Numbered from the stretch's first letter, positions 2,565 to 64,000 are shown. The stretch: DNA of 64,000 nt from Bacteroidales bacterium (GCA_028698995.1 JAQVVM010000001.1:103200-167199), one strand, 5' to 3'. Numbers and translations: made by a program. Notes: a model not told the origin generated them from the letters alone.

Positions 2565-5063
2565 ATGAAAATTATGACACAAACAAAACAGACTTTTAGA
2601 ATGTTAAGTGCTTTTCTCACAGGTGTTTGCGTATTCCTTTTTATGTCCTTTTCATTTGGTCAGCATGTCAATCTGCAAAGGGCTCAAAATGTTGCGAAAA
2701 ATCTTTACAATCAACAGTTCTCATCAGAACTAAAATCATTTGATGATGTTCAAGTCATTAATGAGAAGATAGTTTACAGGCATGAAATTCCTACACTTTA
2801 TATTTTTAACATGGACGCAGGTGGTTTTGTCATTACTTCAACTGATGAGAGGATTAAACCGGTACTAGGTTATGCACCTGAAGGAGTTTTTGATACAGAG
2901 GATATGTCCTGTTGCGTTTCATGGTTGTTAGATCAATATAGTAATCAAATATATGATGTAATAAACGAAAATAGAAATGCTACTTCATACATTGCTCATG
3001 AAGACTGGAACAGATATGAATCTGCTTCACAGAGATCTGTTGAAGAAACTTCAATTGTTACTCCATTATTAACAACTACCTGGTCTCAAGGGTGTTATTA
3101 CAATGCCATGTGTCCTGCAGATTCAACATTAGGGACAACAAGATGCGGCAGAGTACCGACTGGTTGTGTTGCGACAGCATTTGCACAAGTTCTTAAATAT
3201 CATAATTTTCCTCCACAAGGTATAGGTACAAAATCCTATACACATCCAACCTATGGCACGATATCAGCAAACTTTGCTGCAACAACTTATGATTGGGCTT
3301 CAATGCCAAATAAGTTATTATCAAACAATCAGGCAGCAGCAACGCTTTTATACCATGCAGGTGTTTCTATAAACATGAGCTATGGACCAAACGGTTCTTC
3401 AGCCTATACTACAGACGTAAGAAAAGCCCTTGTTAACACATTCAAATATGCCTCCACCACACAATATGTTTATAAAAGTTCTTATACCGATGCACAATGG
3501 ATCAGTATGATAAAAGCTGAATTGGATGCCCAGAGAGTGGTTATTATCAGTGGCAGCGATCCAAATGCAAATGCAGGACATGCTTTTGTTTGCGATGGGT
3601 ATCAGAATACAGATCATTTTCATATCAACTGGGGCTGGAATGGCAGCTCTGATGGTTATTTTTATCTGAATGCTCTCAATCCTTCCTCCTATGCTTTTAA
3701 CACAAGCGTAGGTGCAATAAAAGGGATAAAGCCTTCAACCACTCCAACTGCATGTTCAGGAACACAAACACTTACCGCTGCAAGTGGCAGTATCAGTGAT
3801 GGAAGTGGAACTGCCAATTATACTGATAATCTAAATTGCAAGTGGCTTATTAAGCCAACTAATGCAGGGACTGTAACTCTTACCTTCACCGCATTTGATA
3901 CAGAAAGCAATTATGATTTTGTTAAGGTTTATGATGGTGAAACGACATCCGCAACTTTATTGGGTTCTTTTAGCGGGAGTTCAATTCCTGCTTCAATTAC
4001 TTCAACTACGGGAAAAATCCTTGTTAATTTTACTTCCGACGGGTCTCAAAACAAAGCTGGATGGGCTGCTAATTATGTGGGAAATCCTATTACATCCTAC
4101 TGCAATGGAACAACAATACTTACACAACCTAGTGCTACTTTTAATGATGGCAGCGGAAGTAATGACTATAAAAATAACACGGATTGTTCTTGGCTCATAA
4201 GTCCTCCTGACTCAGCTGTTATAAAACTTACATTTCAATCATTCAACACACAAGCAAGTTATGATTTTGTGAAAGTTTATGATGGTGCCACAACTTCTGC
4301 ACCCCTATTGGGATCCTATAGCGGAACTACTTTGCCTCCACAACTAACTGCAACTTCTGGGAAAATGCTTGTAAAATTTACATCGAATGGTACCACAACA
4401 AAATCTGGATGGAGTGCTAAATATACAACTCAAACTGCATTTTGCTCAGGTATTACAACTCTTACAGCAAACAGTGGCACAATTACAGATGGAAGCGGCA
4501 ATCTTAATTATAATAACAATGCCAATTGTCAGTGGATTATCAAACCAACAAATGCCAGTGCAGTTACATTAACTTTTACATCTTTCAGTACTGAAGCAAA
4601 TTATGACTTTGTGAAAGTGTATAACGGTACAACAACCTCTTCTCCTTTACTTGGTTCCTATAGTGGAAATAGTCTTCCCGCTCAGATTACAGCTTCTTCG
4701 GGGAAAATGCTTGTGCAGTTTACTTCAGATTATAGTGCAACGGCTGCCGGATTTAGTGCCAACTTCACAAAAGTCTCTAAAGATTTTACCGATATTGAAG
4801 AAGCAGACGTTAATGATAACATTGTTATCTTTCCAAATCCTAATACCGGAAATTTTGTATTAAGCCTTATGGCATCTAATGAAGAGAGTTCCTTTTATAT
4901 TGTTGATATTCTCGGAAAGATTGTTTATCATGGCAGCATAGAATCTGGAGTGGAACAATTAGACTTGAATCTGAATTTATCTGAAGGCATATATTGTCTA
5001 GTTATTGAATCTCCAACAGCGAGAATATCAAGAAAGATTGTTGTTACTGGAAGTAATCAGTAA
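2565..5063 (+). CDS. Secreted C10-family (streptopain-like) cysteine peptidase with three CUB-like repeats and a T9SS C-terminal sorting domain
   Basis: Signal peptide; catalytic-type PTGCVATAFAQ and GHAFVCDGY..NWGWNGSSDGYF motifs; three repeats DGSG..Y..N..C.W.I.P....TLTF..F.T...YDFVKVY.G.TTS..LLGS; CTD IFPNPNTGNFVLSL...GIYCLVIES...RKIVV. Confidence 0.9.
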   Translation: MKIMTQTKQTFRMLSAFLTGVCVFLFMSFSFGQHVNLQRAQNVAKNLYNQQFSSELKSFDDVQVINEKIVYRHEIPTLYIFNMDAGGFVITSTDERIKPVLGYAPEGVFDTEDMSCCVSWLLDQYSNQIYDVINENRNATSYIAHEDWNRYESASQRSVEETSIVTPLLTTTWSQGCYYNAMCPADSTLGTTRCGRVPTGCVATAFAQVLKYHNFPPQGIGTKSYTHPTYGTISANFAATTYDWASMPNKLLSNNQAAATLLYHAGVSINMSYGPNGSSAYTTDVRKALVNTFKYASTTQYVYKSSYTDAQWISMIKAELDAQRVVIISGSDPNANAGHAFVCDGYQNTDHFHINWGWNGSSDGYFYLNALNPSSYAFNTSVGAIKGIKPSTTPTACSGTQTLTAASGSISDGSGTANYTDNLNCKWLIKPTNAGTVTLTFTAFDTESNYDFVKVYDGETTSATLLGSFSGSSIPASITSTTGKILVNFTSDGSQNKAGWAANYVGNPITSYCNGTTILTQPSATFNDGSGSNDYKNNTDCSWLISPPDSAVIKLTFQSFNTQASYDFVKVYDGATTSAPLLGSYSGTTLPPQLTATSGKMLVKFTSNGTTTKSGWSAKYTTQTAFCSGITTLTANSGTITDGSGNLNYNNNANCQWIIKPTNASAVTLTFTSFSTEANYDFVKVYNGTTTSSPLLGSYSGNSLPAQITASSGKMLVQFTSDYSATAAGFSANFTKVSKDFTDIEEADVNDNIVIFPNPNTGNFVLSLMASNEESSFYIVDILGKIVYHGSIESGVEQLDLNLNLSEGIYCLVIESPTARISRKIVVTGSNQ

Positions 5064-8342: not shown

Positions 8343-9200
8343 ATGATGAAGAATAAAATTAAGGAATTGTACCGTTTTTTAAGCCCTGCCTTTCAAAAAG
8401 CTTACCTTGACTATAAGGTTGATTTATCACCCCGTTATGGTCACGGAAAGGCTCCACATTCTCAGCTGTATGATATAATTAATTCCGAACGAAGCCAATT
8501 TAGGAGCTTTCTTTTGAAAGTATTAAATTATAAAGAAGCATTTTGGGCTATTAAGCAATCGTCTGTTGAAACAGATAGTAGAAAACCGGCTTGGAATAAC
8601 GGTTTTTTACCCGGCTTGGACATTATTACTTTGTACACATTGCTTTCCGAGGTAAAACCAAATAAATATGTTGAGATTGGTTCAGGAAATTCCACAAAGA
8701 TTGCTTACAAGGCTAAAACAGATAATAATCTGCAAATGGAAATTGTATCCATTGATCCTTTACCAAGAGCGGAAATTGACAATTTGGCCAATCAGGTTAT
8801 ACGAAAACCATTTGAAAAATGCGATTTTTCTTTTCTGTTTGATTTAAAAGAAAATGATGTTTTGTTTGTTGATAATTCTCATAGAATTTTACCCAATTCC
8901 GACTCAATGGTATTTTTTATGGAAGTCCTCCCTTTTTTGAAAAAAGGTGTCATCGTTCATATTCATGATATTTATCTTCCTTATGATTATCCTCAGTTCA
9001 TGTGTGACAGATTTTACTCGGAACAATATGGCTTAGCTATGTATCTACTTGCCAATCCAAATAAGTATAAAACATTGCTTCCCAACTATTTTATATCTGA
9101 GGATGCTGAGCTTTCAAAGATAATAACACCTATATGGGAACATGCCAATCTAAAAGATGTGGAAAAGCATGGAGGAAGCTATTGGATTGTAATTGGTTAA
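8343..9200 (+). CDS. Class I SAM-dependent methyltransferase-like protein
   Basis: KYVEIGSGNSTKIAYKA motif I followed by EIVSIDP and DVLFVDNSH. Confidence 0.75.
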   Translation: MMKNKIKELYRFLSPAFQKAYLDYKVDLSPRYGHGKAPHSQLYDIINSERSQFRSFLLKVLNYKEAFWAIKQSSVETDSRKPAWNNGFLPGLDIITLYTLLSEVKPNKYVEIGSGNSTKIAYKAKTDNNLQMEIVSIDPLPRAEIDNLANQVIRKPFEKCDFSFLFDLKENDVLFVDNSHRILPNSDSMVFFMEVLPFLKKGVIVHIHDIYLPYDYPQFMCDRFYSEQYGLAMYLLANPNKYKTLLPNYFISEDAELSKIITPIWEHANLKDVEKHGGSYWIVIG

Positions 9201-9338: not shown

Positions 9339-9719
9339 ATGTATATGAAGTTCTTAAATCGGTATTATCTGTTTTTTCTTTTAGTATTGTTCCCTTTAAC
9401 AAGCTGCCGTCATGATGCATTAATTCCTAGTGATAGTTATTTTAATAAAGATTGTGATTCTGTAAATGTTACATATAATAATTTTGTAAGAAATTATATG
9501 ATTGATAAAAGTTGCATTCTTTGTCATACAGATGAAATGGGTTTTTCGCCCTATCTTGATGTGTATGACTCAATTGTTAATTATGTTCAGGACACCACAA
9601 ATGCAGCAATTTTTATGGAAAAAGTCTATACCAATCATAAAATTATTGACACACTAAAAATGAATACCCCTTGTGAAGTCAGCAAATTAAGGAACTGGAT
9701 TAATATGATCACACAATAA
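9339..9719 (+). CDS. Small lipoprotein with a single CXXCH haem-binding motif
   Basis: Lipobox LTSC; DKSCILCHTDEMG; C-terminal TPCEVSKLRNWINMITQ resembles the ORF at 9729. Confidence 0.75.
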   Translation: MYMKFLNRYYLFFLLVLFPLTSCRHDALIPSDSYFNKDCDSVNVTYNNFVRNYMIDKSCILCHTDEMGFSPYLDVYDSIVNYVQDTTNAAIFMEKVYTNHKIIDTLKMNTPCEVSKLRNWINMITQ

Positions 9720-9728
9720 CATATTTTA

Positions 9729-10079
9729 ATGGAAAAAGTTTTTTTTGCTATAATATTGTTGATGTTTTTTTTGAGTGCATGTTATAATGACAATGAAGAG
9801 GATGTATATGAAAAATTTAATACGGAATTGCCATGTGATACTATTGATGTAAATTATTCCGAAAATATTAAATCCATATTTGAAAAGGAATGTGTTTCTT
9901 GTCATGGTGCATCTCACCCAACATGTAAGCTGGATAATTATATCAATGCAAGAAACTATGCATTGCAAGTTAATACAAATTTATATACTGTGGTTTCTGA
10001 CAATGACCATAAAGGCCGTTTTCTTAGTCCTTGTGAACTAAAACAAATTAAATTGTGGATACAATATGGTGCTCAATAA
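9729..10079 (+). CDS. Small cytochrome c-like lipoprotein with a single CXXCH motif (paralogue of the 9339 gene)
   Basis: Lipobox LSAC; CDTIDVNYSENIKSIFEKECVSCHGASH; C-terminal SPCELKQIKLWIQYGAQ. Confidence 0.8.
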   Translation: MEKVFFAIILLMFFLSACYNDNEEDVYEKFNTELPCDTIDVNYSENIKSIFEKECVSCHGASHPTCKLDNYINARNYALQVNTNLYTVVSDNDHKGRFLSPCELKQIKLWIQYGAQ

Positions 10080-10959
10080 ATCATACATATTTCTTTTCAT
10101 TTTAATATTTTGTTGTTGGCATAATGAAATTTGTGCTCAGGAGATTGATGTATTTGAAGAAACTGAGTTTATTGAACAAACCTTCTTCAACACACGTGTG
10201 GCAAATAACCACTCTTCTGAAACCCTGGAAAGAGGTTATTTAGATTTTCGTCTGTCCCATCGTATGGGAAGAATCAGTAGTGGCGTTTCAGAAATGTTTG
10301 GACTGAATCAGGCTTTTTCACAGTTTGCTTTGGAATATGGCATAACCAATAATTTAATGTTTGGTGTTAACACTAATTCATCAGAAAAAATTTATTCGGG
10401 TTTCATAAAATTTAAATTTATCAAACAAAGTACTGGTAAAGTAGAAATGCCCTTAACAATGACATGGTTTTCAAATTCTGAAATTAAAACAGGTACATTA
10501 GACTATCCAAACAATCAATATTATTTCAGTTCCCGATTATTTTTTACCCATCAACTCATTATTTCCAGAAAATTCACAGATAAGATTTCATTTCAGATTT
10601 CACCAACATTGGTACATAAAAACATGGTAAAAACCAGAAATGATAATAATAATATTTTTTTGACAGGGATAGCTTTAAGGTATAAATTCAAAAGGAAAAT
10701 GGCATTTAATGCAGAATACAATTATGTTTTTCCAGGACAAATTTATTCGGATATTGATGGTCATAGACCTGTTAATTGTTTGTCAGTTGGTATTGATATT
10801 TATACGGGGAAACATAATTTTCAGCTTTTTTTTACAAATGCAGTTGCAATGAATGAAAAATCTTTTTTAACGGAAACGACTGAAAATGTTTTTAAAAAAG
10901 GGATACATTTTGGTTTTAATATTACTAGATTATTTAATATTGTAAATTATTATGAATAG
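10066..10959 (+). CDS. DUF5777-like outer-membrane beta-barrel protein
   Basis: Signal peptide; ..FFNTRVANNHSSETLERGYLDFRLSHRMGRISSG.SEMFGLNQAFSQFALEYGITNNLMFGV typical of this family; overlaps upstream gene by 14 bp. Confidence 0.75.
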   Translation: MVLNKSYIFLFILIFCCWHNEICAQEIDVFEETEFIEQTFFNTRVANNHSSETLERGYLDFRLSHRMGRISSGVSEMFGLNQAFSQFALEYGITNNLMFGVNTNSSEKIYSGFIKFKFIKQSTGKVEMPLTMTWFSNSEIKTGTLDYPNNQYYFSSRLFFTHQLIISRKFTDKISFQISPTLVHKNMVKTRNDNNNIFLTGIALRYKFKRKMAFNAEYNYVFPGQIYSDIDGHRPVNCLSVGIDIYTGKHNFQLFFTNAVAMNEKSFLTETTENVFKKGIHFGFNITRLFNIVNYYE

Positions 10960-11500
10960 AAAATTTTACCGTATAATGCAGTCACCCTTGTTATTATTGG
11001 CACTTTTATTTATTTTGAGTATTTCTTTCTCCGCTTTTATTTCAACAGAAAATACACCTGCCGGTTATACAGGATCGCCAAAGGATGATAAGGATTGTTC
11101 TTCGTGTCATAGGGCAAGACCTAAAAATGAAGAGGGTATTATTTTAAGTAATTGCTCAGGGAATTCGTACGAACCATTAAGAACATATACCCTAACTATT
11201 AAGCTTAAAGGCAATGAAAGTTCAAGGAAATTTGGTTTCCAGATAACCCCCCAGACTCCTACCGGAAAACTGCAAGGAAGATTGATTGTTACAGATGCTG
11301 AACAAACAAAACTTGCAAATGCCAAATATCTAAATCAGACGGCCAATGGTGTTGATGGAAATGGAGAAAAAACATGGTCGTTTGATTGGCAAGCACCTGC
11401 TTCAGGCTCAGGCAATGTTACTTTTTACGGCTCTTTTCTCATTGGAGGAAGACCTGAAATTGTTCTTAATTCATCATTAACCCTTACCGAAAAAAGATAA
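10952..11500 (+). CDS. Choice-of-anchor V/Reelin-like exported protein with CXXCH motif
   Basis: ENTPAGYTGSPKDDKDCSSCHRARP near the N-terminus followed by a beta-sandwich-like domain (GFQITPQTPTGKLQGRL..W.FDWQAP..GSGNVTFYGSF). Confidence 0.7.
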   Translation: MNRKFYRIMQSPLLLLALLFILSISFSAFISTENTPAGYTGSPKDDKDCSSCHRARPKNEEGIILSNCSGNSYEPLRTYTLTIKLKGNESSRKFGFQITPQTPTGKLQGRLIVTDAEQTKLANAKYLNQTANGVDGNGEKTWSFDWQAPASGSGNVTFYGSFLIGGRPEIVLNSSLTLTEKR

Positions 11501-11519
11501 TTTATTAAACTTAAATTTT

Positions 11520-12332
11520 ATGAATAAACAATTTTCTCTATTTGCAAAAATGACAATCATAATGTTCATTTTTATATTGAATTTTAATTCTAATGCCCAA
11601 ACATCAGGGAATCTGAGCTTTTCATTAACAGTAACTGAACCATCTGGGGGCTATAATAATAAAATCGTTATTGCAATCTGGCTTGAAGATTCACTTACTG
11701 GTAATTTTGTTAAAACAAAAATGCGCTATGCAGTTACAGAGGTACAATATTTAAACGTGTGGATTGCCAAATCCGGTCAAAATGTTGTTGATGCCATTAC
11801 AGGAGCCACTACACAACCTGGCCAATTTTCAATTATATGGAATGGGACAGATGTAAGTGGCAATGTGGTGCCTGATGGTCCCTATAATGTCTGGATTCAG
11901 TTCAGCGATAAAAACAGTTCAGGTCCTACTAAATTCTGCTCCTTTGTTAAAGGCCCTAATGCTATTTCCGGTCAGACATACCCAAACTCAGGGAATTTTA
12001 CCAATATGGTTTTAAGTTGGACTCCTATTACAGCATCAGTCCAATATAATTTTAACCAAAACAATCCTATATATATATATCCCAATCCGGCTCGAGATAA
12101 TATCAGTATCTCTTTTAACCTTTTGAAAGACAAACCTGTTGATATTTCCGTTTACAATATGAAAGGACAAATTGTTAAACACATTGCTAGCTTAATACAA
12201 GCTGATGCAGGCCATAATATTATGAGCTGGGATGCTACAAACGACTCTTTTCAAAAGCTTCCAAATGGCGTTTATTTTATTAGGATAAGCTGCAACGAAT
12301 TTGATAAAGTAGCCAAGATTATTCTTTTATAG
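11520..12332 (+). CDS. DUF2271/FlgD-Ig-like exported protein with T9SS C-terminal sorting domain
   Basis: VTEPSGGYNNKIVIAIWLEDSLTGNFVKT...W.ATTQPGQFSIIWNGTDVSGNVVPDGPYNVWIQFSDK; C-terminal IYIYPNPARDNISISF...GVYFIRI...KIILL. Confidence 0.75.
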   Translation: MNKQFSLFAKMTIIMFIFILNFNSNAQTSGNLSFSLTVTEPSGGYNNKIVIAIWLEDSLTGNFVKTKMRYAVTEVQYLNVWIAKSGQNVVDAITGATTQPGQFSIIWNGTDVSGNVVPDGPYNVWIQFSDKNSSGPTKFCSFVKGPNAISGQTYPNSGNFTNMVLSWTPITASVQYNFNQNNPIYIYPNPARDNISISFNLLKDKPVDISVYNMKGQIVKHIASLIQADAGHNIMSWDATNDSFQKLPNGVYFIRISCNEFDKVAKIILL

Positions 12333-12373
12333 AAAATATATAAGAACAAGTATCTTGCTTTAGTCCAAAAAAT

Positions 12374-12494
12374 GAGGCTGTATCAAAAGCTAAAAACATG
12401 TCATACTGAGCGAAGCGAAGTATCTGATTATCAAATTTATAAGATTTTTCACTGCGTTCAAAATGACAAATATGAATGCTTTTGATACAGCCTC
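12374..12494. repeat. 121 bp MITE-like/palindromic element with perfect 17 bp terminal inverted repeats
   Basis: GAGGCTGTATCAAAAGC (12374-12390) and GCTTTTGATACAGCCTC (12478-12494); inner arms TGTCAT...ATGACA; contains TGTCATACTGAGCGAAGCGAAGTATCT. Confidence 0.75.
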
Positions 12495-12497
12495 TCC

Positions 12498-12531
12498 AAA
12501 AAAAAAGTTGCCCAGGGGCAACTTTTTTTTT
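12498..12531. terminator. Bidirectional intrinsic terminator between convergent genes
   Basis: aaaaaaaagttgccc-ag-gggcaactttttttt: GC stem flanked by A and T tracts, between the ends of the 11520 (+) and 12547 (-) genes. Confidence 0.9.
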
Positions 12532-12546
12532 GAATAAAAACGCTGA

Positions 12547-14568
12547 TTATTGCATGTTATTTACTCTATTCTCAAGTTCATTTATTTTCTCTTGTTGTTG
12601 TTCAATAAGAGCTTTTAAGCTTTCGATAATCTCTTGTTGCTCTTGAATGGCTTTAATTGAAATTACAGAAATCTGAGAATAACTCAAGAGTTTTAATCCT
12701 TCGTCTGATTCTGTTACAAGCTCGGGAAACTGTTCTTCAAATTCTTGTGAAATAAAACCAATTTTCAAAGAATTTTGTAGATCATCTTTAAAAGTATATG
12801 ATGATGGTCTTAATGCCATCACTTTGCTTAATACATTTCCAAGGGGGTTAATGTTGGTCTTTAAAGACCTGTCGGAAATTGTAGAATAGACACCATCAAC
12901 ATTGGAAATATTACCTTTACCTGTTCCGTTATACTGATACCTATAACTTTTTGTTGAAGTTCCAATTCCAGTTTCCCAGTAATCTGTTGCGGTTTCATGT
13001 TCAGTTCTTATTGCTGCGTTTGCACCAGTTTGTTTGATGTGAAGACCTAAGCCAGGAGTGGTTGTATTAACACCTAAATTACCACCAACATGTACATCAT
13101 TTACAAAATATCCGGCCCAGTTTGTTGTTCCACCAGTTGCGGTTGCATAAATACCGTAGTTTGTTGCACCAGTAGCAGCAGAACCGGCTTGGAAATAACC
13201 TGCATGAACATCACCAGTACCACCTGAATAACGGTAAGCATAGGCATGAATAGCTCTGTTAGTGCCATTGGAATAGCTGTATGCATAAAACTGTCCTGCA
13301 TAATTTGAATTACCAGCAGAACCAATACCATTTTGATAAGCATAGGCAGTAATACCTCTGTTGTCTCTTGAAGCTGAGTTAGATAAAAAATAACCTGCAT
13401 AATTGTAGCCTGGGTTACCGGTGCCTGTAAAATTGGCTTCGGCATATACCCCATAAGAGCTACCAGATGTTGCAGTGTGCTTGAAATAACTACCATAGCC
13501 TGTATTTGTACCTGTATTCATATTGTTATAAATCCCATATGTATAAGCAGTATCATTGGCTATTTTTAGTCTATCTCCAATGAGTCCGATTGGTCGAAGG
13601 TAAGTGGTTTGGTTTGACCAATTTGAGCCGCCTCCACTTGGGGTTTGCCATGTAGCAGTACCATTGGCATCAGAAGTCAAAACCTTGCCTACTCCGGGTG
13701 TTCCTGCGCCAGCAAAACGTACAGTGCCGGTTGTATGAAGTTGTGCAGCTGGACTGACTGTACCAATACCTAAATTATTCTGAATATATGCATCACCTTG
13801 TCTGTTGAAAAAGGCTCTCTGAACTCCGTCAATTTCAATAGATAGCGCATACCAACCATTACCAAATGCATTTTTTAAAGACACAGGATAAGTTGATGAG
13901 CCCATTAAGATATCACCATAAACACTGAGTTTTTCGGTTGGAGTAGTCGTACCTATACCAATATTTGTATTGTTGTTGAAGAGGATGCTGTTTCCTACCC
14001 AGTTTGTACCATCATGTCTTAATGTTTGTCCGGATGTGCCTGGGATATTAATAGAGCCTGTTGGACCTGTTGGCCCTGTTGCTCCGGTAGTACCAGCTCC
14101 TGTTGGACCTGTTACACCTGTTGGACCTGTGGGGCCGGTTGCTCCGGTTGGGCCTGGTGTTCCTGAACCTCCTGAAGAAGCTGAATATAAAGCATAAGGA
14201 ACACTTAGCAGTTGTGTGGCTCCCATATCCACGTATCCTGAACCAGCATTAACTTCTATTTGAATATAATAGTTGTTTGTACCCCATGAGATAGTCGAAA
14301 AATTTCCGCTAACGACTGTACCATTACCAATATTCAAATTTACTAAGCCATACTGATTGGTTGTTGGACTGAAAGTCTCCTGATAAACAGTTGTTCCTCC
14401 TGATGAACCCTGATGAATAGAAACCCTGATTGGGGTATTCTGATTGGCGATAATATTACCTCCATTGTCACGAAGAACGGCCTGATATTTAAAACTTTGT
14501 GGGGCTTGTGCCCAGATTGATACAGCAGTTAAAACTGCAATTAAAAATGTAAATAGGATTTTTTTCAT
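12547..14568 (-). CDS. Tail fibre domain-containing protein with collagen-like repeats and C-terminal endosialidase-chaperone (S74) domain
   Basis: GPTGATGPTGPTGVTGPTGAGTTGATGPTGPTGS triplet repeats; C-terminal SDRSLKTNINPLGNVLSKVMALRPSSYTFKDD..KIGFISQEFEEQFPELV. Confidence 0.88.
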   Translation of the reverse strand: MKKILFTFLIAVLTAVSIWAQAPQSFKYQAVLRDNGGNIIANQNTPIRVSIHQGSSGGTTVYQETFSPTTNQYGLVNLNIGNGTVVSGNFSTISWGTNNYYIQIEVNAGSGYVDMGATQLLSVPYALYSASSGGSGTPGPTGATGPTGPTGVTGPTGAGTTGATGPTGPTGSINIPGTSGQTLRHDGTNWVGNSILFNNNTNIGIGTTTPTEKLSVYGDILMGSSTYPVSLKNAFGNGWYALSIEIDGVQRAFFNRQGDAYIQNNLGIGTVSPAAQLHTTGTVRFAGAGTPGVGKVLTSDANGTATWQTPSGGGSNWSNQTTYLRPIGLIGDRLKIANDTAYTYGIYNNMNTGTNTGYGSYFKHTATSGSSYGVYAEANFTGTGNPGYNYAGYFLSNSASRDNRGITAYAYQNGIGSAGNSNYAGQFYAYSYSNGTNRAIHAYAYRYSGGTGDVHAGYFQAGSAATGATNYGIYATATGGTTNWAGYFVNDVHVGGNLGVNTTTPGLGLHIKQTGANAAIRTEHETATDYWETGIGTSTKSYRYQYNGTGKGNISNVDGVYSTISDRSLKTNINPLGNVLSKVMALRPSSYTFKDDLQNSLKIGFISQEFEEQFPELVTESDEGLKLLSYSQISVISIKAIQEQQEIIESLKALIEQQQEKINELENRVNNMQ

Positions 14569-57338: not shown

Positions 57339-58538
57339 TTATTCTTTCATAAACTTCTTCACAATCACCCCTTTTTCTGTTTGTAAGTAAACAAAGTAAA
57401 TTCCTTTCCCCAGCCCACTCACATCCACACTAAGCCTCTTCTCCCGCGCTTCCTGCCGCCAAACCTCCTGCCCCAGCAGGTTGGTAATGCAAAGGGTGGC
57501 GTTTGTTACAGAGCATTCTATGGTGAGTTGGTGGGTGGTAGGATTAGGATACACCCCAAACCCACGGTTTAACCCGTGGGTTGCCTCATTCAACCCAGTC
57601 CCATACACACTCACCGTTACCGTATCAAAGCTTACATTTCCACATATCGTCTGCTCTAAAACATAAGTAGTAGTACTATCCGGCCACACCCACAGCCCCG
57701 CCACCGTATCTATGGGTAACCCATTTACAAACCATATACAATCCTCATCCAAGCCTATCTCCGGCTGCCTGCCAATAAACACACTATCGCCCGGCTGTAT
57801 AAGCGTATCGTTACCGGCGTAGGCGGGGAGGTTGGTGGGGATGACGGAGACGTCGTCTATGTAATATGTAGAAAACCAGTAAGTTACCCAATATACAATT
57901 TGAGAGAGAGAATCAGGGAAGAAATTACCTATGGTTATATACTCCTCTGTACCTGTTGCGACAAATGAACCTTCTATTTTCATCCAGTTTATTGTGTCAC
58001 TTAATGGTTGTGTGTTGTTATATACTTGAGGTGTAACAGCTACTAATCCCATATGTATAGGTGTAAAAACACTGCTATCATCAAAATAGGCACCCAATGG
58101 TTTAATATAAGCGTGGCTTTTATCTGATAAGCTTGCATAAAATTTAACACAATAGGTATGACCAGAAGTAAGACCTTTTTTAAGTTTGCTTTGAATATAT
58201 TCTCTCCAATTATCAATATAATAACTAATTGCTACAGCTATCCCAACATATCCATTTCCAGAATGTGGGTATTGAAAAGTAGAATTACCTGTATTGAAGG
58301 GCACACCACATATAAAAGGATTTGTACAACAAGCATGAAACAAATCAGGACTCCCCCCACCACCATTAATAAGTGTGCCCCATCCTATAGCAGAATCAAT
58401 TTGACCAAAATCATTTGGACATGAGTATATCATTTCAAAGCTTGGGTTTGCAACTAAATTAACCTGAGCTAAAGAAACTGTATATGCTATCATTAAGATA
58501 GCACATACTGATAGTTTTCTAAGAATTTTTATTCTCAT
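57339..58538 (-). CDS. Secreted T9SS type A sorting domain protein
   Basis: Signal peptide; LVANPSFEMIYSCPNDFGQIDSAIGW (carbohydrate-binding-like); CTD FGVYPNPTTHQLTIECS...GKGIYFVYLQTEKGVIVKKFMKE; ATGA overlap with upstream gene. Confidence 0.85.
   Translation of the reverse strand: MRIKILRKLSVCAILMIAYTVSLAQVNLVANPSFEMIYSCPNDFGQIDSAIGWGTLINGGGGSPDLFHACCTNPFICGVPFNTGNSTFQYPHSGNGYVGIAVAISYYIDNWREYIQSKLKKGLTSGHTYCVKFYASLSDKSHAYIKPLGAYFDDSSVFTPIHMGLVAVTPQVYNNTQPLSDTINWMKIEGSFVATGTEEYITIGNFFPDSLSQIVYWVTYWFSTYYIDDVSVIPTNLPAYAGNDTLIQPGDSVFIGRQPEIGLDEDCIWFVNGLPIDTVAGLWVWPDSTTTYVLEQTICGNVSFDTVTVSVYGTGLNEATHGLNRGFGVYPNPTTHQLTIECSVTNATLCITNLLGQEVWRQEAREKRLSVDVSGLGKGIYFVYLQTEKGVIVKKFMKE
57559..57582. 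repeat. REP-like palindrome inside the coding sequence
   Basis: aacccacgg-tttaac-ccgtgggtt: 9 bp perfect stem, 6 nt loop, translated in frame as part of (E)ATHGLNRGFG. Confidence 0.7.
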
Positions 58539-61500
58539 TTGATTACAATAATTTTTTCTGAATTGTAAATGTTACCCTTTGAATCTTTTACAGAAATAAA
58601 ATAAATACCGTTATTTAGGCCTGCATCAAAGTTACCCATATTATCACGTAATTGCAAATTAAACTCATTCATTTTATTTCCCAAAATATTATAAATGCTC
58701 ACGACAGCACTTTCGGATATTGAATTACTTCCAAACAGTGAAATTGTGAAGATGCCGGTATTAGGATTTGGAAAAACCTGTAATGATAAATTTGCCGGAT
58801 TTGATTTTTCTGTATGTGCATCAGACAACATTTTAGCAGAATTATTGTCAATACAAATATCAGAATACAGTGTATAGTCTCTGTAAATCATACTGTACAG
58901 TGTTCTGGCTTTATGTACAGCCAAGCCGTCTCTTGCAGGACAACCGTCAACCAAAGCCTTGAGAATAATTGAATCGGCAACCGTAAAGGTGCTGTCTCTA
59001 TAATGAATATACACATTATAGAAATCAATATAATTCGATTCAATATCATTCTGTGGCGTTACACTTGCAAGCGTAGAAATTGACTGAGACAAATGTCCGT
59101 TTGCAAGGTTGTTTTCAGCATTTACAAGCGCACCTATATTTCCATTATGGGCAGTATTATAAAAATTTTTTAAAATTACTGAGTTGTCCTTTAGTGCGGG
59201 TTGCATTTCGAGTATTCGATAAACACGGAACATATCGTTGATGTGTTGTTGTACAGGGAAAACCGTATAATTAACACTATCCTTGACAAGCCGCTCTAAC
59301 CAACTTATTTGGCTATTTAATCCCATGCCTGTTGATGTCAATAAATTACCGCTTGTATTTGCAGACTTATATTGAGGGACATCACAATTTGTAGTGTTTG
59401 TGTTTGGAGGAGTGATGTGAGTAATTCCCTGCATTGGTATTGTTTTATACATTAGGTTTTGATCCGATTGATCATTCCAATTAAATCCGGTTCCACCAGA
59501 TTCAGGATTTTGATGGGGGTCTGAAGCATCAATAAACAGCTCAGAATTAACTGGGTTAGAACCCATCACCGTATATGTTTTAAACTGTTGCCCTAAAGTA
59601 TAAGAGGTTGTCGGCCATTTATTGCTACTTGCATAGGGGTCATATCCCTGTTGACCAAGAATGCCGGCATTTAACACAAATCCCATTTGACTGCCATCCA
59701 TAGTATTATTTAAAAATGTTGTTGGGAATTGGTCTCCCTGAAATTCAATGCCTATTCCGGTATTTACAACATTATTACATTTAACAATTTGCTCATGCCC
59801 TGTCACATTTGTCCACGTTGCATTACTGGCGCATCTTATGCCATAATATGCCAAGTCGTCATTGTCAAAACCCTGAACATTATTCTCTTTTATTACTCCA
59901 TTGAAGTTTTGTACTGTGTTAATTCCAAATTGAGAATTACCTACGCCCGGGTCAACAAGAGAAATGTAATTGTTTGAAATCACAGGGCGGTTTCCATAGC
60001 AATATAGTTCATTATAATAATCCAAATAATAATTTACCCAGTTTTCCATCTGAATGCCGTTTCGCACATTATATAAATGATTATAAGTAACATTCAGTTC
60101 ATTACAATCATCAGGGGTTATCTGATTTAATCCCAAAAGTAGGTTGCTCACAACAATACCCAAAATTACATTTCCGCTAATATATTGATTATTACCCAGT
60201 AAATCAGCTTGAATAATGTTGTTATTGATATTAAAATCGCCATGAATGTGTTGTCCATTTGGATACGAAGGATCATAATAAGCATTTGAGGCAGTAAAAT
60301 TAATCCCCCAAGAAACATTAGTGATTGTATTAGAATTAACATTTATTTCTGAGCATTGAGGTGTTTTTATATTTACGCCAATAAATCCTTCTAATGTGCC
60401 TTGGTCGCTCCGAATATTTACATATTCAATATTCACCACATCATAGTTTAATACATCAATAGCTATCTTATTGTCGTAAAAGAAGTTATTACCACCATTT
60501 ACCTGTATTCTGTTAATAGGCAATGGAAGTTGCGTACTGGTGTTTATAGCTCTTAAAGCCATACCATCAGTCCATGTGGCTGTGCCTGTAATATACTGAA
60601 ATGCATTGTTTGAGCAAGTCAGATTGCTGTTTGTAGCATTAATGCCAAAATACAAGTTGTCGAAAATATTTACGGTAGTGCCAGTTATGTTGGGGTCGTC
60701 GCCGTTAATTAATACCTCATAGTGAATTCCTCCAGCATAAGTTCCCACATTTTCTAATTTAATACCTATCATACTTGGTTGATTACTGAGTGTTAATGAA
60801 CTTCCATAAATTGCAACACGATAACGCTCGTTTAAAGAACCCTGATTCAACATCTCTGAAAGATTAAATAACCATGCAGTATGTGCTGGAATAGGCCATG
60901 TGAGCAGAGTTGTAACTGGTGTGAAGTTTCTACTGGTGAAAACCGTATTTGTAACCTCAAATGGATAACTCCCAGATTGAGTATAATCTTTAATACGAAT
61001 ACCTGTAGTGTTCTTATTAAAAACTGAACCGTCAACAGATAGTAGTGTAGGTGTTGAATTGTCAATATCTACTGCAATAATTGCATCCTCTATCAGTGTT
61101 CCGTTGTTAATAATCAAAGTTCCTGTACCTTCAATCACAATGCCTTGCCACATACTATCGCAGGCAAACAAATGACAATGATTAAGTGTAAGAGACGCAT
61201 TTGAGGGAATCGTGATTTTGATAGGATTGATAGGAAGAGATACGTCATCAATCCTGATTGAAACATCATTCAGAACAACATTGCCTTGAATTGTAATATC
61301 ATGTTGTAAATCATATAATGTATTTGGAGCAAAATTGGGGTTACCGGAACTAATAATAGTTTGATTAATCACTTCTCCGATACACTCACAAAGTGGGGCA
61401 ACATTAACAACTACATCATTTGACGCTGTACATCCATTTACTTGAGTTACTGTAACTGTATAAGTTGTTGTTGTGTTTGGTGTTACAGTAATTGATGAAG

Positions 61501-64000
61501 TTGTTTCTCCGGTACTCCAATAATAAGTACCACCTCCTGAAGTAGTAAGAGTATGTTCATATCCCATGCAATTGTACTGGGGGTTAGTAATTGTTATTGC
61601 AGGTTCCCATTTCTTTCCGAATTCAATATCATCAAGCGCAAAATCACATCCGTAAAATATATAGTCACCATGAATAATTTCAATCTGTAATGAGGAGGGT
61701 GCAGGATCTGGTATCACAAATTCATAACACAACTGATGCCACAACTCATCATTGTCAAGGTGAAGATATAGTGATGGGGTAATTGTGCTTGTACAATATT
61801 GCTCAACTCCGTTAATTCTCAAATAAAGTAATGGTGGGTTTGAATTAGTATTACCTATTGTAAACAAATTAGTAGCCCAAAATCTGGAATAGTATATATT
61901 TCCAGCTGTAAAAGGTCCATTAACAGTTGTGCCCCATACAACCTTTTGAATATATGAATATAAACCCACACAACCAGGATAAGAAAAGATAGCATCCGGT
62001 TCTGCCATACCATTTGCTATTAAATAATAGCCATTTGGTAAATTTGGCGTATTATTATTTGGATCCCACCAAGGTTGTAAGAAAGTTGGTCCGTAATCCA
62101 ATACTGAATTTTGATTTGTGATTATTGCTTCACATGGCATCAAAGGCGTTGGGGGACTGGATATCCCTTCGTCGTATTCTGTTGAAAATATATGTGGCCA
62201 TGTTCCCAATATTTCAAAATCGCCATTGTAGATTAAATTATTTATACAAAATTGATCGCATGGATAAAAAACATCTGCATTTGGTATAGTTCTGGAAATC
62301 AGGCAAATAGTTGAATTGAATTCTTGAGTTTGATTATTTACTATCTTTACATAATATGTATTATTGATTTGTAAAGAATTGCAAGAGAAGAAAAAATATT
62401 TGTTATTAGAAAAATAATACAATTGTGTTAGACTATTACATTGATTTTTATATACATATACTTCAATGTCGTTTGATAAAGGTTGAAAAAGTGTATTTTC
62501 TAATTGTATTACGCAGCTTGTATCTGTTGCAGTAAACATGAACCAATACTCAGGTTGATTTAGAATAAACCTAAATTCGTGTTTATGGCATATTGTATCG
62601 TTAGTAACTTCTATTGCGTTATTACATGTTGTACCTTGAACTGTAATGCTAACAGTATCGTAATTTAAACAACCAATTGAGTTTTCAACTGTCAATTTAT
62701 AAGGAGTGTTTGATAAAGGCTTTGCCCATGGATTTGAACTCATTGGGTCGCTCAATCCATTTGTAGGTGTCCACGTATAAGTGTTGCCACCAATCGGGCT
62801 GCTGCCAATTTGTACACTATCACTGATATTAATTGTAGTGTCACTCCCCGCATCAGCCACAGGCAAATCATAAACTGTAACAGTAATAGACGAGGAACTC
62901 ACCGTACCACAACTGCCCGAAGTTACATTTTTTCTGTAACAAGTTGTTTGTGTGAGGTTGCCACCCTGATACGTGCTTGCCGTTGCCCCTGAAATATTAC
63001 CCCAGCCGCTGCCGCAACCACCTACTGTGGTGCTTTGCCATTGGTAAGTATAGCTTCCTGTGCCACCAGAAGGAGCAACAGTTTGAGTAAAGAGTGAAGG
63101 AGAAGTATTGTAGCATATAGATTGGTTGCTGCCTACGCTACCTGCTGTGAGATTGGCATAAACTGTTACACTAATAGCCGCAGAACTTACAGTCCCGCAA
63201 CTGCCCGAAGTTACATTGCGGCGGTAGCAGGTGGTTTGTGTAAGGTTGCCCGCCTGATAGGTGCTTGCAGTTGCTCCTGATATATTGCCCCAACCACTGC
63301 CACAACTAGAAACTGTTGTGCTTTGCCATTGATAAGTATAGCTTCCTGTGCCGCCTGAAGGAGCAACAGTTTGAGTAAAGAGTGAGGGGGAAGTATTGTA
63401 GCATATTGACTGGTTGCTTCCTACGCTACCTGCAGTAAGATTGGCATAAACTGTTACATTAATAGCCGCAGAACTCACTGTTCCACAACTGCCCGAAGTT
63501 ACATTGCGGCGGTAGCAGGTGGTTTGTGTAAGACTGCTTGCCTGATAGGTGTTTGCCGTTGCTCCTGATATATTGCCCCAGCCACTGCCGCAACCGCTTA
63601 CTGTGGTGTTTTGCCATTGGTAGGTATAGCTGCCGGTACCCCCTGTGGGTGCAGTCGCTTGTGTAAAAGCTGCAGGGCTTGTATTGTAACAAATAGACTG
63701 GTTGCTGCCTACGCTGCCTGCTGTGAGGTTGGCATAAACCGTTACTGTTATAGCTGCCGAACTCACCGTACCACAACTACCCGATGTAACATTTCTGCGG
63801 TAACAGGTGGTTTGTGTAAGATTGCCTGCCTGATAGGTGTTTGCTGTTGCCCCGGAAACATTGCCCCAGCCACTCTCGCAGCCGCTTACTGTGGTGTATT
63901 GCCATTGGTAGGTATAGCTACCTGTGCCACCTGTAGGTGCTCCTGTTTGCGTAAAAGCCGTAGGACTTGTGTTATAGCATATTGACTGGTTGCTACCTAT
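58535..64000 (-). CDS. Giant secreted T9SS protein with Ig/PKD-like tandem repeats and parallel beta-helix-like region (truncated at the 5' end by window edge)
   Basis: The frame stays open past the ORF-list Met (63766) to the window edge (IGSNQSICYNTSPTAFTQTGAPTGGTGSYTYQWQ...). CTD LQVFPNPNTGIFTISLFG...GIYFISVKDSKGNIYNSEKIIVIK. Confidence 0.85.
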   Translation of the reverse strand: MGSNQSICYNTSPTAFTQTGAPTGGTGSYTYQWQYTTVSGCESGWGNVSGATANTYQAGNLTQTTCYRRNVTSGSCGTVSSAAITVTVYANLTAGSVGSNQSICYNTSPAAFTQATAPTGGTGSYTYQWQNTTVSGCGSGWGNISGATANTYQASSLTQTTCYRRNVTSGSCGTVSSAAINVTVYANLTAGSVGSNQSICYNTSPSLFTQTVAPSGGTGSYTYQWQSTTVSSCGSGWGNISGATASTYQAGNLTQTTCYRRNVTSGSCGTVSSAAISVTVYANLTAGSVGSNQSICYNTSPSLFTQTVAPSGGTGSYTYQWQSTTVGGCGSGWGNISGATASTYQGGNLTQTTCYRKNVTSGSCGTVSSSSITVTVYDLPVADAGSDTTINISDSVQIGSSPIGGNTYTWTPTNGLSDPMSSNPWAKPLSNTPYKLTVENSIGCLNYDTVSITVQGTTCNNAIEVTNDTICHKHEFRFILNQPEYWFMFTATDTSCVIQLENTLFQPLSNDIEVYVYKNQCNSLTQLYYFSNNKYFFFSCNSLQINNTYYVKIVNNQTQEFNSTICLISRTIPNADVFYPCDQFCINNLIYNGDFEILGTWPHIFSTEYDEGISSPPTPLMPCEAIITNQNSVLDYGPTFLQPWWDPNNNTPNLPNGYYLIANGMAEPDAIFSYPGCVGLYSYIQKVVWGTTVNGPFTAGNIYYSRFWATNLFTIGNTNSNPPLLYLRINGVEQYCTSTITPSLYLHLDNDELWHQLCYEFVIPDPAPSSLQIEIIHGDYIFYGCDFALDDIEFGKKWEPAITITNPQYNCMGYEHTLTTSGGGTYYWSTGETTSSITVTPNTTTTYTVTVTQVNGCTASNDVVVNVAPLCECIGEVINQTIISSGNPNFAPNTLYDLQHDITIQGNVVLNDVSIRIDDVSLPINPIKITIPSNASLTLNHCHLFACDSMWQGIVIEGTGTLIINNGTLIEDAIIAVDIDNSTPTLLSVDGSVFNKNTTGIRIKDYTQSGSYPFEVTNTVFTSRNFTPVTTLLTWPIPAHTAWLFNLSEMLNQGSLNERYRVAIYGSSLTLSNQPSMIGIKLENVGTYAGGIHYEVLINGDDPNITGTTVNIFDNLYFGINATNSNLTCSNNAFQYITGTATWTDGMALRAINTSTQLPLPINRIQVNGGNNFFYDNKIAIDVLNYDVVNIEYVNIRSDQGTLEGFIGVNIKTPQCSEINVNSNTITNVSWGINFTASNAYYDPSYPNGQHIHGDFNINNNIIQADLLGNNQYISGNVILGIVVSNLLLGLNQITPDDCNELNVTYNHLYNVRNGIQMENWVNYYLDYYNELYCYGNRPVISNNYISLVDPGVGNSQFGINTVQNFNGVIKENNVQGFDNDDLAYYGIRCASNATWTNVTGHEQIVKCNNVVNTGIGIEFQGDQFPTTFLNNTMDGSQMGFVLNAGILGQQGYDPYASSNKWPTTSYTLGQQFKTYTVMGSNPVNSELFIDASDPHQNPESGGTGFNWNDQSDQNLMYKTIPMQGITHITPPNTNTTNCDVPQYKSANTSGNLLTSTGMGLNSQISWLERLVKDSVNYTVFPVQQHINDMFRVYRILEMQPALKDNSVILKNFYNTAHNGNIGALVNAENNLANGHLSQSISTLASVTPQNDIESNYIDFYNVYIHYRDSTFTVADSIILKALVDGCPARDGLAVHKARTLYSMIYRDYTLYSDICIDNNSAKMLSDAHTEKSNPANLSLQVFPNPNTGIFTISLFGSNSISESAVVSIYNILGNKMNEFNLQLRDNMGNFDAGLNNGIYFISVKDSKGNIYNSEKIIVIK
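62870..64000 (-). repeat. 288 bp (96 aa) in-frame tandem repeat, three full copies plus a partial fourth
   Basis: The GATTGGCATA-like landmark recurs at 63151, 63439 and 63727 (spacing exactly 288 bp), with the equivalent boundary near 62863; each unit encodes ..YANLTAGSVGSNQSICYNTSP..FTQ..APSGGTGSYTYQWQ.TTV..CGSGWGN.SGATA.TYQ..NLTQTTCYRRNVTSGSCGTVSSAAI. Confidence 0.93.

Follow-up and report, generated by a model that had tools for sequence, protein, structure and literature searches.

A compact operon of five genes in a 64,000-nt stretch of Bacteroidales DNA (the whole of which is referred to as the window) stands, in our estimation, an even chance of encoding a cell-envelope electron-transfer module that is built on a core conserved in Bacteroidota and in which haem c would act together with an outer-membrane barrel, and flavin at the surface. 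The individual parts are of known kinds; their combination is new.

All five ORFs are located on the plus strand (Table 1), separated by gaps of 9 and 19 bp or joined by overlaps of 14 and 8 bp. An earlier, sequence-only reading of this DNA had described the same coordinates and spacing, two lipoboxes, one CXXCH motif in each of three proteins, an outer-membrane barrel and a T9SS sorting domain, all of which were reproduced. The three CXXCH genes are, however, not consecutive as had been stated, since the barrel gene separates the second from the third; moreover, only the first two CXXCH proteins (P1 and P2) possess a lipobox, the third not being a lipoprotein. The window holds 49 non-overlapping ORFs of 100 aa or longer, and among them the CXXCH motif is confined to these three proteins. 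By our own arithmetic, the chance that three random picks fall inside five neighbours is ~1.5%; as evidence for clustering beyond chance, conservation in relatives is far stronger than this figure.

Table 1. Genes and terminator-like element of the operon, with positions in the window
Feature	Position	Strand	Characteristics
P1 lipoprotein, family MH2	9339..9719	+	lipobox LTSC; single CXXCH (CILCH)
P2 lipoprotein, family MH2	9729..10079	+	lipobox LSAC; acidic stretch CYNDNEED; single CXXCH (CVSCH)
DUF5777 outer-membrane barrel	10066..10959	+	PF19089; 12 predicted strands
Exported choice-of-anchor V / Reeler-domain protein	10952..11500	+	NF041895, PF02014; N-terminal CXXCH (CSSCH)
T9SS-exported FlgD_ig/DUF2271 protein	11520..12332	+	PF13860, PF10029, PF18962; candidate flavinylation motif DAITGAT (residues 91-97)
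Bidirectional intrinsic-terminator-like hairpin, end of operon	12497..12532		17-nt perfect inverted repeat, A/T tracts

The operon starts 138 bp 3' of an unrelated methyltransferase-like gene (8343-9200), which was considered as a further member and rejected in view of this gap and of none being noted among the neighbours in relatives. A scan for consensus promoters remained at shuffle level, the consensus being uninformative in this phylum. Folding of the region 12330-12545 yielded z = -9.35, a value that takes in a neighbouring repeat besides the terminator hairpin. Just 5' of the terminator, a 121-nt imperfect hairpin (12374-12494) was observed, whose 17-nt terminal arms (GAGGCTGTATCAAAAGC) are perfect and separated by 87 nt; it contains CTGAGCGAAGCGAAGTATCT and resembles a small MITE/REP-like repeat; its inner 20-mer occurs as a single copy in the window. 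Convergent with the operon lies a minus-strand gene (12547-14568) for a surface protein that has G-x-x repeats like those of collagen and, at its C-terminus, a Peptidase_S74 (endosialidase chaperone) domain. Elsewhere in the window, a T9SS-exported C10-family cysteine peptidase with three CUB domains and a propeptide resembling I69 inhibitors (2565-5063) and a large minus-strand ORF with repeated GWGN[IV]SGAT motifs, probably a repeat-rich surface protein (58535-63766), were noted.

DUF5777 was detected in 117 of 298 Bacteroidota genomes (~40%), representing 67 of 142 genera, and was absent from all 14 control genomes. Its gene neighbourhood was studied in two samples, namely 78 phylum-wide loci, the neighbours of which were grouped by coverage-filtered clustering and counted if on the same strand, and 78 named loci with the closest DUF5777 relatives. 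In the phylum-wide sample, the neighbours comprise YceI (60 loci), the monohaem lipoprotein family MH2 (36), an OB-fold protein (tRNA_anti-like; 24), a CX4CH lipoprotein related to MH2 (18) and a dihaem lipoprotein (14), and missing cytochromes are often replaced by a Rieske protein (9), a di-haem protein like MauG (4) or another redox protein. The named loci display a recurrent order, DH5-MH2-OB-YceI-DUF5777 (DH5, dihaem lipoprotein; OB, OB-fold protein), with a cytochrome at 71, YceI at 68, MH2 at 66, the OB-fold protein at 63 and either a cytochrome or a Rieske protein at 72 of them; some of the remaining ones sit on truncated contigs. At ten of the named loci, L173 among them, a lipoprotein which we take to resemble the secreted-repeat COG4315 type stands where the dihaem lipoprotein would be, and at three named loci it is presumably a haem-binding-domain-like protein. 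Places in related genomes that match P2 adjoin a DUF5777 gene in 10 out of 11 cases. Inspection by eye of three loci of the phylum-wide sample (L132, L134 and L136) revealed DUF5777 together with a haem protein akin to ethylbenzene dehydrogenase, small FeS proteins of Tat type and an NrfD-like membrane protein, contexts which hint at a respiratory version of the DUF5777 module.

The sequence-only reading had proposed that mono-haem lipoproteins act with the barrel, and lack of conserved co-occurrence in related genomes, or loss of the CXXCH motif in orthologues, had been set beforehand as the observations to refute it. The motif is kept in all of the 70 P1/P2 relatives examined and DUF5777 co-occurs with CXXCH lipoproteins at 71 of the 78 named loci, and therefore the idea holds at sequence level. 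As to the wider proposal of a surface redox or haem-handling module, the lipoprotein-barrel core proved to be conserved, whereas the choice-of-anchor V and DUF2271 proteins are not part of the conserved system; it had been overlooked that the usual partners, missing from this operon, are YceI and the OB-fold protein, and that both lipoproteins lack the axial Met.

Cytochromes aside, no partner recurs at the named loci as constantly as YceI. YceI lipocalins bind isoprenoids and ubiquinone-8, and in Burkholderia YceI and cytochrome b561 detoxify lipid peroxyl radicals (PMC9113575), from which an outer-membrane antioxidant module could be construed, wherein DUF5777 and the haem lipoproteins would remove lipid peroxyl radicals and the window would harbour a reduced version. 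Canonical relatives indeed pair YceI with a cytochrome as does the BcnA/LcoA YceI-cytochrome b561 system (PMC9113575). The genome under study, in contrast, contains neither YceI nor a haem-copper oxidase, the cytochromes of the window are c-type lipoproteins rather than b561, and the Rieske, NrfD/FeS-like and MauG-like contexts indicate general electron transfer, so that a role in radical removal appears quite improbable.

The assignment of the two lipoproteins as cytochromes draws on their relatives. Searched alone, P1 had no Pfam match and P2 matched CBB3/PccH cytochrome c models weakly. With HMMs of relatives, P1 was recognised by MH2 (E = 8.8e-15) and by the second domain of DH5 (E = 1.8e-10), and P2 by MH2 (E = 2.1e-31); judged by this homology, P1 and P2 are members of one monohaem lipoprotein family, MH2. 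The family profile in turn matches cytochrome c6 structures across the CXXCH and Met region (best E = 1.8e-4). As class I c-type cytochromes, P1 and P2 thus possess the CXXCH motif and the family homology, and lack the distal Met ligand: the downstream axial Met-Pro is present in 68 of the 70 relatives versus neither of the two window lipoproteins, the respective segment being deleted in P2. This loss suggests that the potential is lower or otherwise altered, or that the haem site is open; it could instead signal degenerating cytochromes. P1 may be a shortened DH5, reduced to the C-terminal domain, because its lipobox context (CRHD) is similar to that of DH5 (CKHE/CVHD) and both come first in the locus. 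The AlphaFold model of P2 (pLDDT 84.7) had no significant match, cytochromes included, in a fold search, the top match being the monohaem cytochrome PccH of Geobacter (E = 1.9), and was therefore left out as support; sequence similarity between MH2 and PccH is weak as well (E = 3e-4, below the cut-off). Genes for CcmE, CcmC and CcmF-like proteins in the genome render haem attachment feasible, and P1 and P2 probably bear covalently bound haem. At least three acidic residues at positions +2 to +9 after the lipid-bearing Cys occur in 47 of 73 MH2 family members. The acidic stretch of P2 is a candidate surface lipoprotein export signal (LES), in which a polar or positive residue and then acidic ones come right after the lipid-bearing Cys, but does not conform to the strict C-X-K-(D/E)2 (PMC5080379), and CRHD of P1 is a weak candidate.

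The barrel protein matches PF19089 over its full length (profile 1-247/247, E = 2.6e-76). Its AlphaFold model (pLDDT 89.7, pTM 0.82) was related by Foldseek to the porins NanC, KdgM and OmpG (best target-normalised TM 0.78, for KdgM). When the barrel profile was searched against PDB sequences, there was no match. Three His residues (H65, H184 and H250) and other polar residues are invariant across an alignment of 42 barrel sequences. The encoding of an outer-membrane barrel with c-type cytochromes recalls the MtrCAB/PioAB porin-cytochrome conduits. In MtrCAB, a large barrel is threaded by a multihaem cytochrome, whereas the barrel of the window is small and its lipoproteins would carry a single haem each; a conduit of this type was ruled out by barrel size (12 strands) and haem count (one CXXCH per protein).

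The narrow porin-like model, the invariant His and polar residues and the di-haem MauG-like proteins at four loci would also be compatible with metal handling, in which the barrel would serve as a small iron or copper pore and the haem lipoproteins, joined by MauG-like partners in some genomes, would change the oxidation state of the metal so that it is taken up or detoxified; a link of flavinylation gene clusters with the reduction and assimilation of iron has been published (PMC8238504). The recurrent neighbours, however, include no recognised family of TonB receptors, siderophores or metal transporters, and we consider this explanation unlikely. The antioxidant and metal-handling explanations have the cytochrome assignment in common and differ in the substrate. 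A metal-handling module of this kind would resemble the MbnP/MbnH copper system. An iron-limitation lead from Riemerella (upregulated YceI-like gene B739_2003) could not be tied to any DUF5777 locus.

The two downstream genes set the window apart. The fourth protein matches choice_anch_V (E = 3.3e-23) and the Reeler domain (E = 3.5e-5), and its N-terminal motif is kept as CXXCH or CX3CH in the relatives read. The fifth matches FlgD_ig (E = 9e-17) and DUF2271 (E = 1.1e-10, over the cut-off and partial, covering profile positions 20-101 of 136) and has the C-terminal sorting domain of T9SS cargo (PF18962, E = 1.2e-11; TIGR04183, E = 3.9e-12). Its clustering with proteins of L074 and L089 is probably an artefact of the T9SS tail.

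DUF2271 had been counted among the families with little functional description; it is in fact a published substrate of ApbE, which flavinylates it at [S/T]GA[S/T] (PMC8238504). The fifth protein is not functionally blank, because its VDAITGATT represents this known motif and aligns with the site of the ApbE-linked DUF2271 proteins of L159, L161 and L162; the aligned Bacteroidota proteins adjoin PepSY-like and ApbE-like genes. The pattern D..[ST]GA[ST] is absent from all other ORFs of the window and from 1105 background ORFs (0/1105). Including the window protein, six of eight DUF2271 homologues possess the motif, the other two having TGST or AGST in its place. Two DUF2271/FlgD relatives adjoin genes for a multihaem cytochrome and ResB/CcsA. 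The genome has just one ApbE gene, the product of which bears a lipoprotein signal; it lies on a contig (C28) other than that of the operon (C85). On the basis of the motif, the fifth protein is a putative carrier of FMN. With the ApbE-flavinylated DUF2271/PepSY-like systems (PMC8238504), the window shares the DUF2271-type domain, a D-x-x-[S/T]GA[S/T] site and the presence of ApbE in the genome; it differs in the FlgD_ig-type domain, the T9SS tail, a cluster devoid of PepSY and apbE, and haem c and a barrel as partners.

Linkage of this pair to DUF5777 is rare. Choice-of-anchor V adjoins DUF5777 in one of ~34 other genomes that contain both families (G041, in the order DUF5777-YceI-MH2-choice-of-anchor V). 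The expected co-occurrence of DUF2271 with DUF5777 was not borne out: no DUF2271 gene adjoins DUF5777 in the phylum-wide sample and none is found on the same strand at the 78 named loci. The downstream pair, unlinked to DUF5777 elsewhere but for this one exception, therefore represents either a lineage-specific addition or a chance arrangement, and may be a passenger.

In the window as in the canonical locus, MH2 lipoprotein genes are positioned directly 5' of DUF5777 with the same strand and order. The window locus is unlike the canonical one in the missing OB-fold and YceI genes, the single-domain P1, the lost Met ligands and the two extra downstream genes. YceI was detected neither in the operon nor in the whole genome, the same search being positive for 6 of 14 controls. 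An OB-fold (tRNA_anti-like) protein is not encoded in the operon; genome-wide, the search for it had no match, but gave none in the controls either. Haem-copper oxidase (COX1) was not found in the genome, and the operon has no gene for a transmembrane donor of electrons (PepSY, NrfD, quinol oxidase). Absences from the genome are provisional, because the assembly is a draft with an estimated contamination of 3.4%.

Missing partners, missing Met ligands and a downstream pair unlinked to DUF5777 elsewhere could also mean that the locus is a degenerate or rearranged remnant, i.e., a canonical locus decaying after loss of YceI, the OB-fold protein and the axial ligands, with two unrelated exported genes located downstream by chance. 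To this explanation we attach a low probability, considering that five intact ORFs are tightly spaced, that CXXCH is kept in three proteins and that the barrel is of full length with its conserved residues; furthermore, DAVTGAT is retained in the DUF2271 homologue of G298, which belongs to the same family (62% identity), even though that homologue lies outside any such operon.

According to the favoured electron-transfer reading, P1 and P2 would function as c-type cytochrome lipoproteins anchored in the outer membrane, and the 12-strand DUF5777 barrel would be their membrane partner or a pore for a redox substrate. In most relatives, the module further includes an isoprenoid/quinone-binding YceI lipocalin and an OB-fold protein. 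Here, these two would be replaced by the haem c-containing choice-of-anchor V protein and the T9SS-secreted DUF2271 protein, presumably carrying covalent FMN, so that haem c and flavin would exchange electrons at the surface of the cell; the potential lowered or the haem site opened by the Met loss would suit a flavin partner. Surface exposure, complex formation and the direction of electron flow we infer, and as a first guess the substrate would be iron or another small extracellular acceptor or donor. Taken further, and here with more doubt than confidence, the core may be a widespread and seemingly undescribed outer-membrane redox machine of Bacteroidota that combines the DUF5777 barrel and monohaem lipoproteins with quinone-carrying YceI, and the quinone-lipocalin half of which was swapped in this lineage for a T9SS-secreted covalent flavoprotein, both cytochromes being re-tuned by removal of Met to yield a haem-to-flavin surface relay.

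No paper in the searched literature names DUF5777, nor was a description of the YceI-barrel-cytochrome locus in Bacteroidota found there, subscription journals having been mostly outside the search, such that a description elsewhere is possible. With a core conserved across Bacteroidota and no study found in this search, the locus is well suited as a candidate for an electron-transfer system of the cell surface that has so far escaped characterisation. The tie of DUF5777 to c-type cytochrome lipoproteins, YceI and the OB-fold protein provides this family with a concrete, testable role in electron transfer in the envelope, and the locus offers protein variants for testing, such as those with the Met ligand restored or removed and T97A in the TGAT site. 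The variant in the window predicts that ApbE flavinylates a protein secreted by the T9SS and suggests that quinone/lipocalin and flavoprotein partners are interchangeable.
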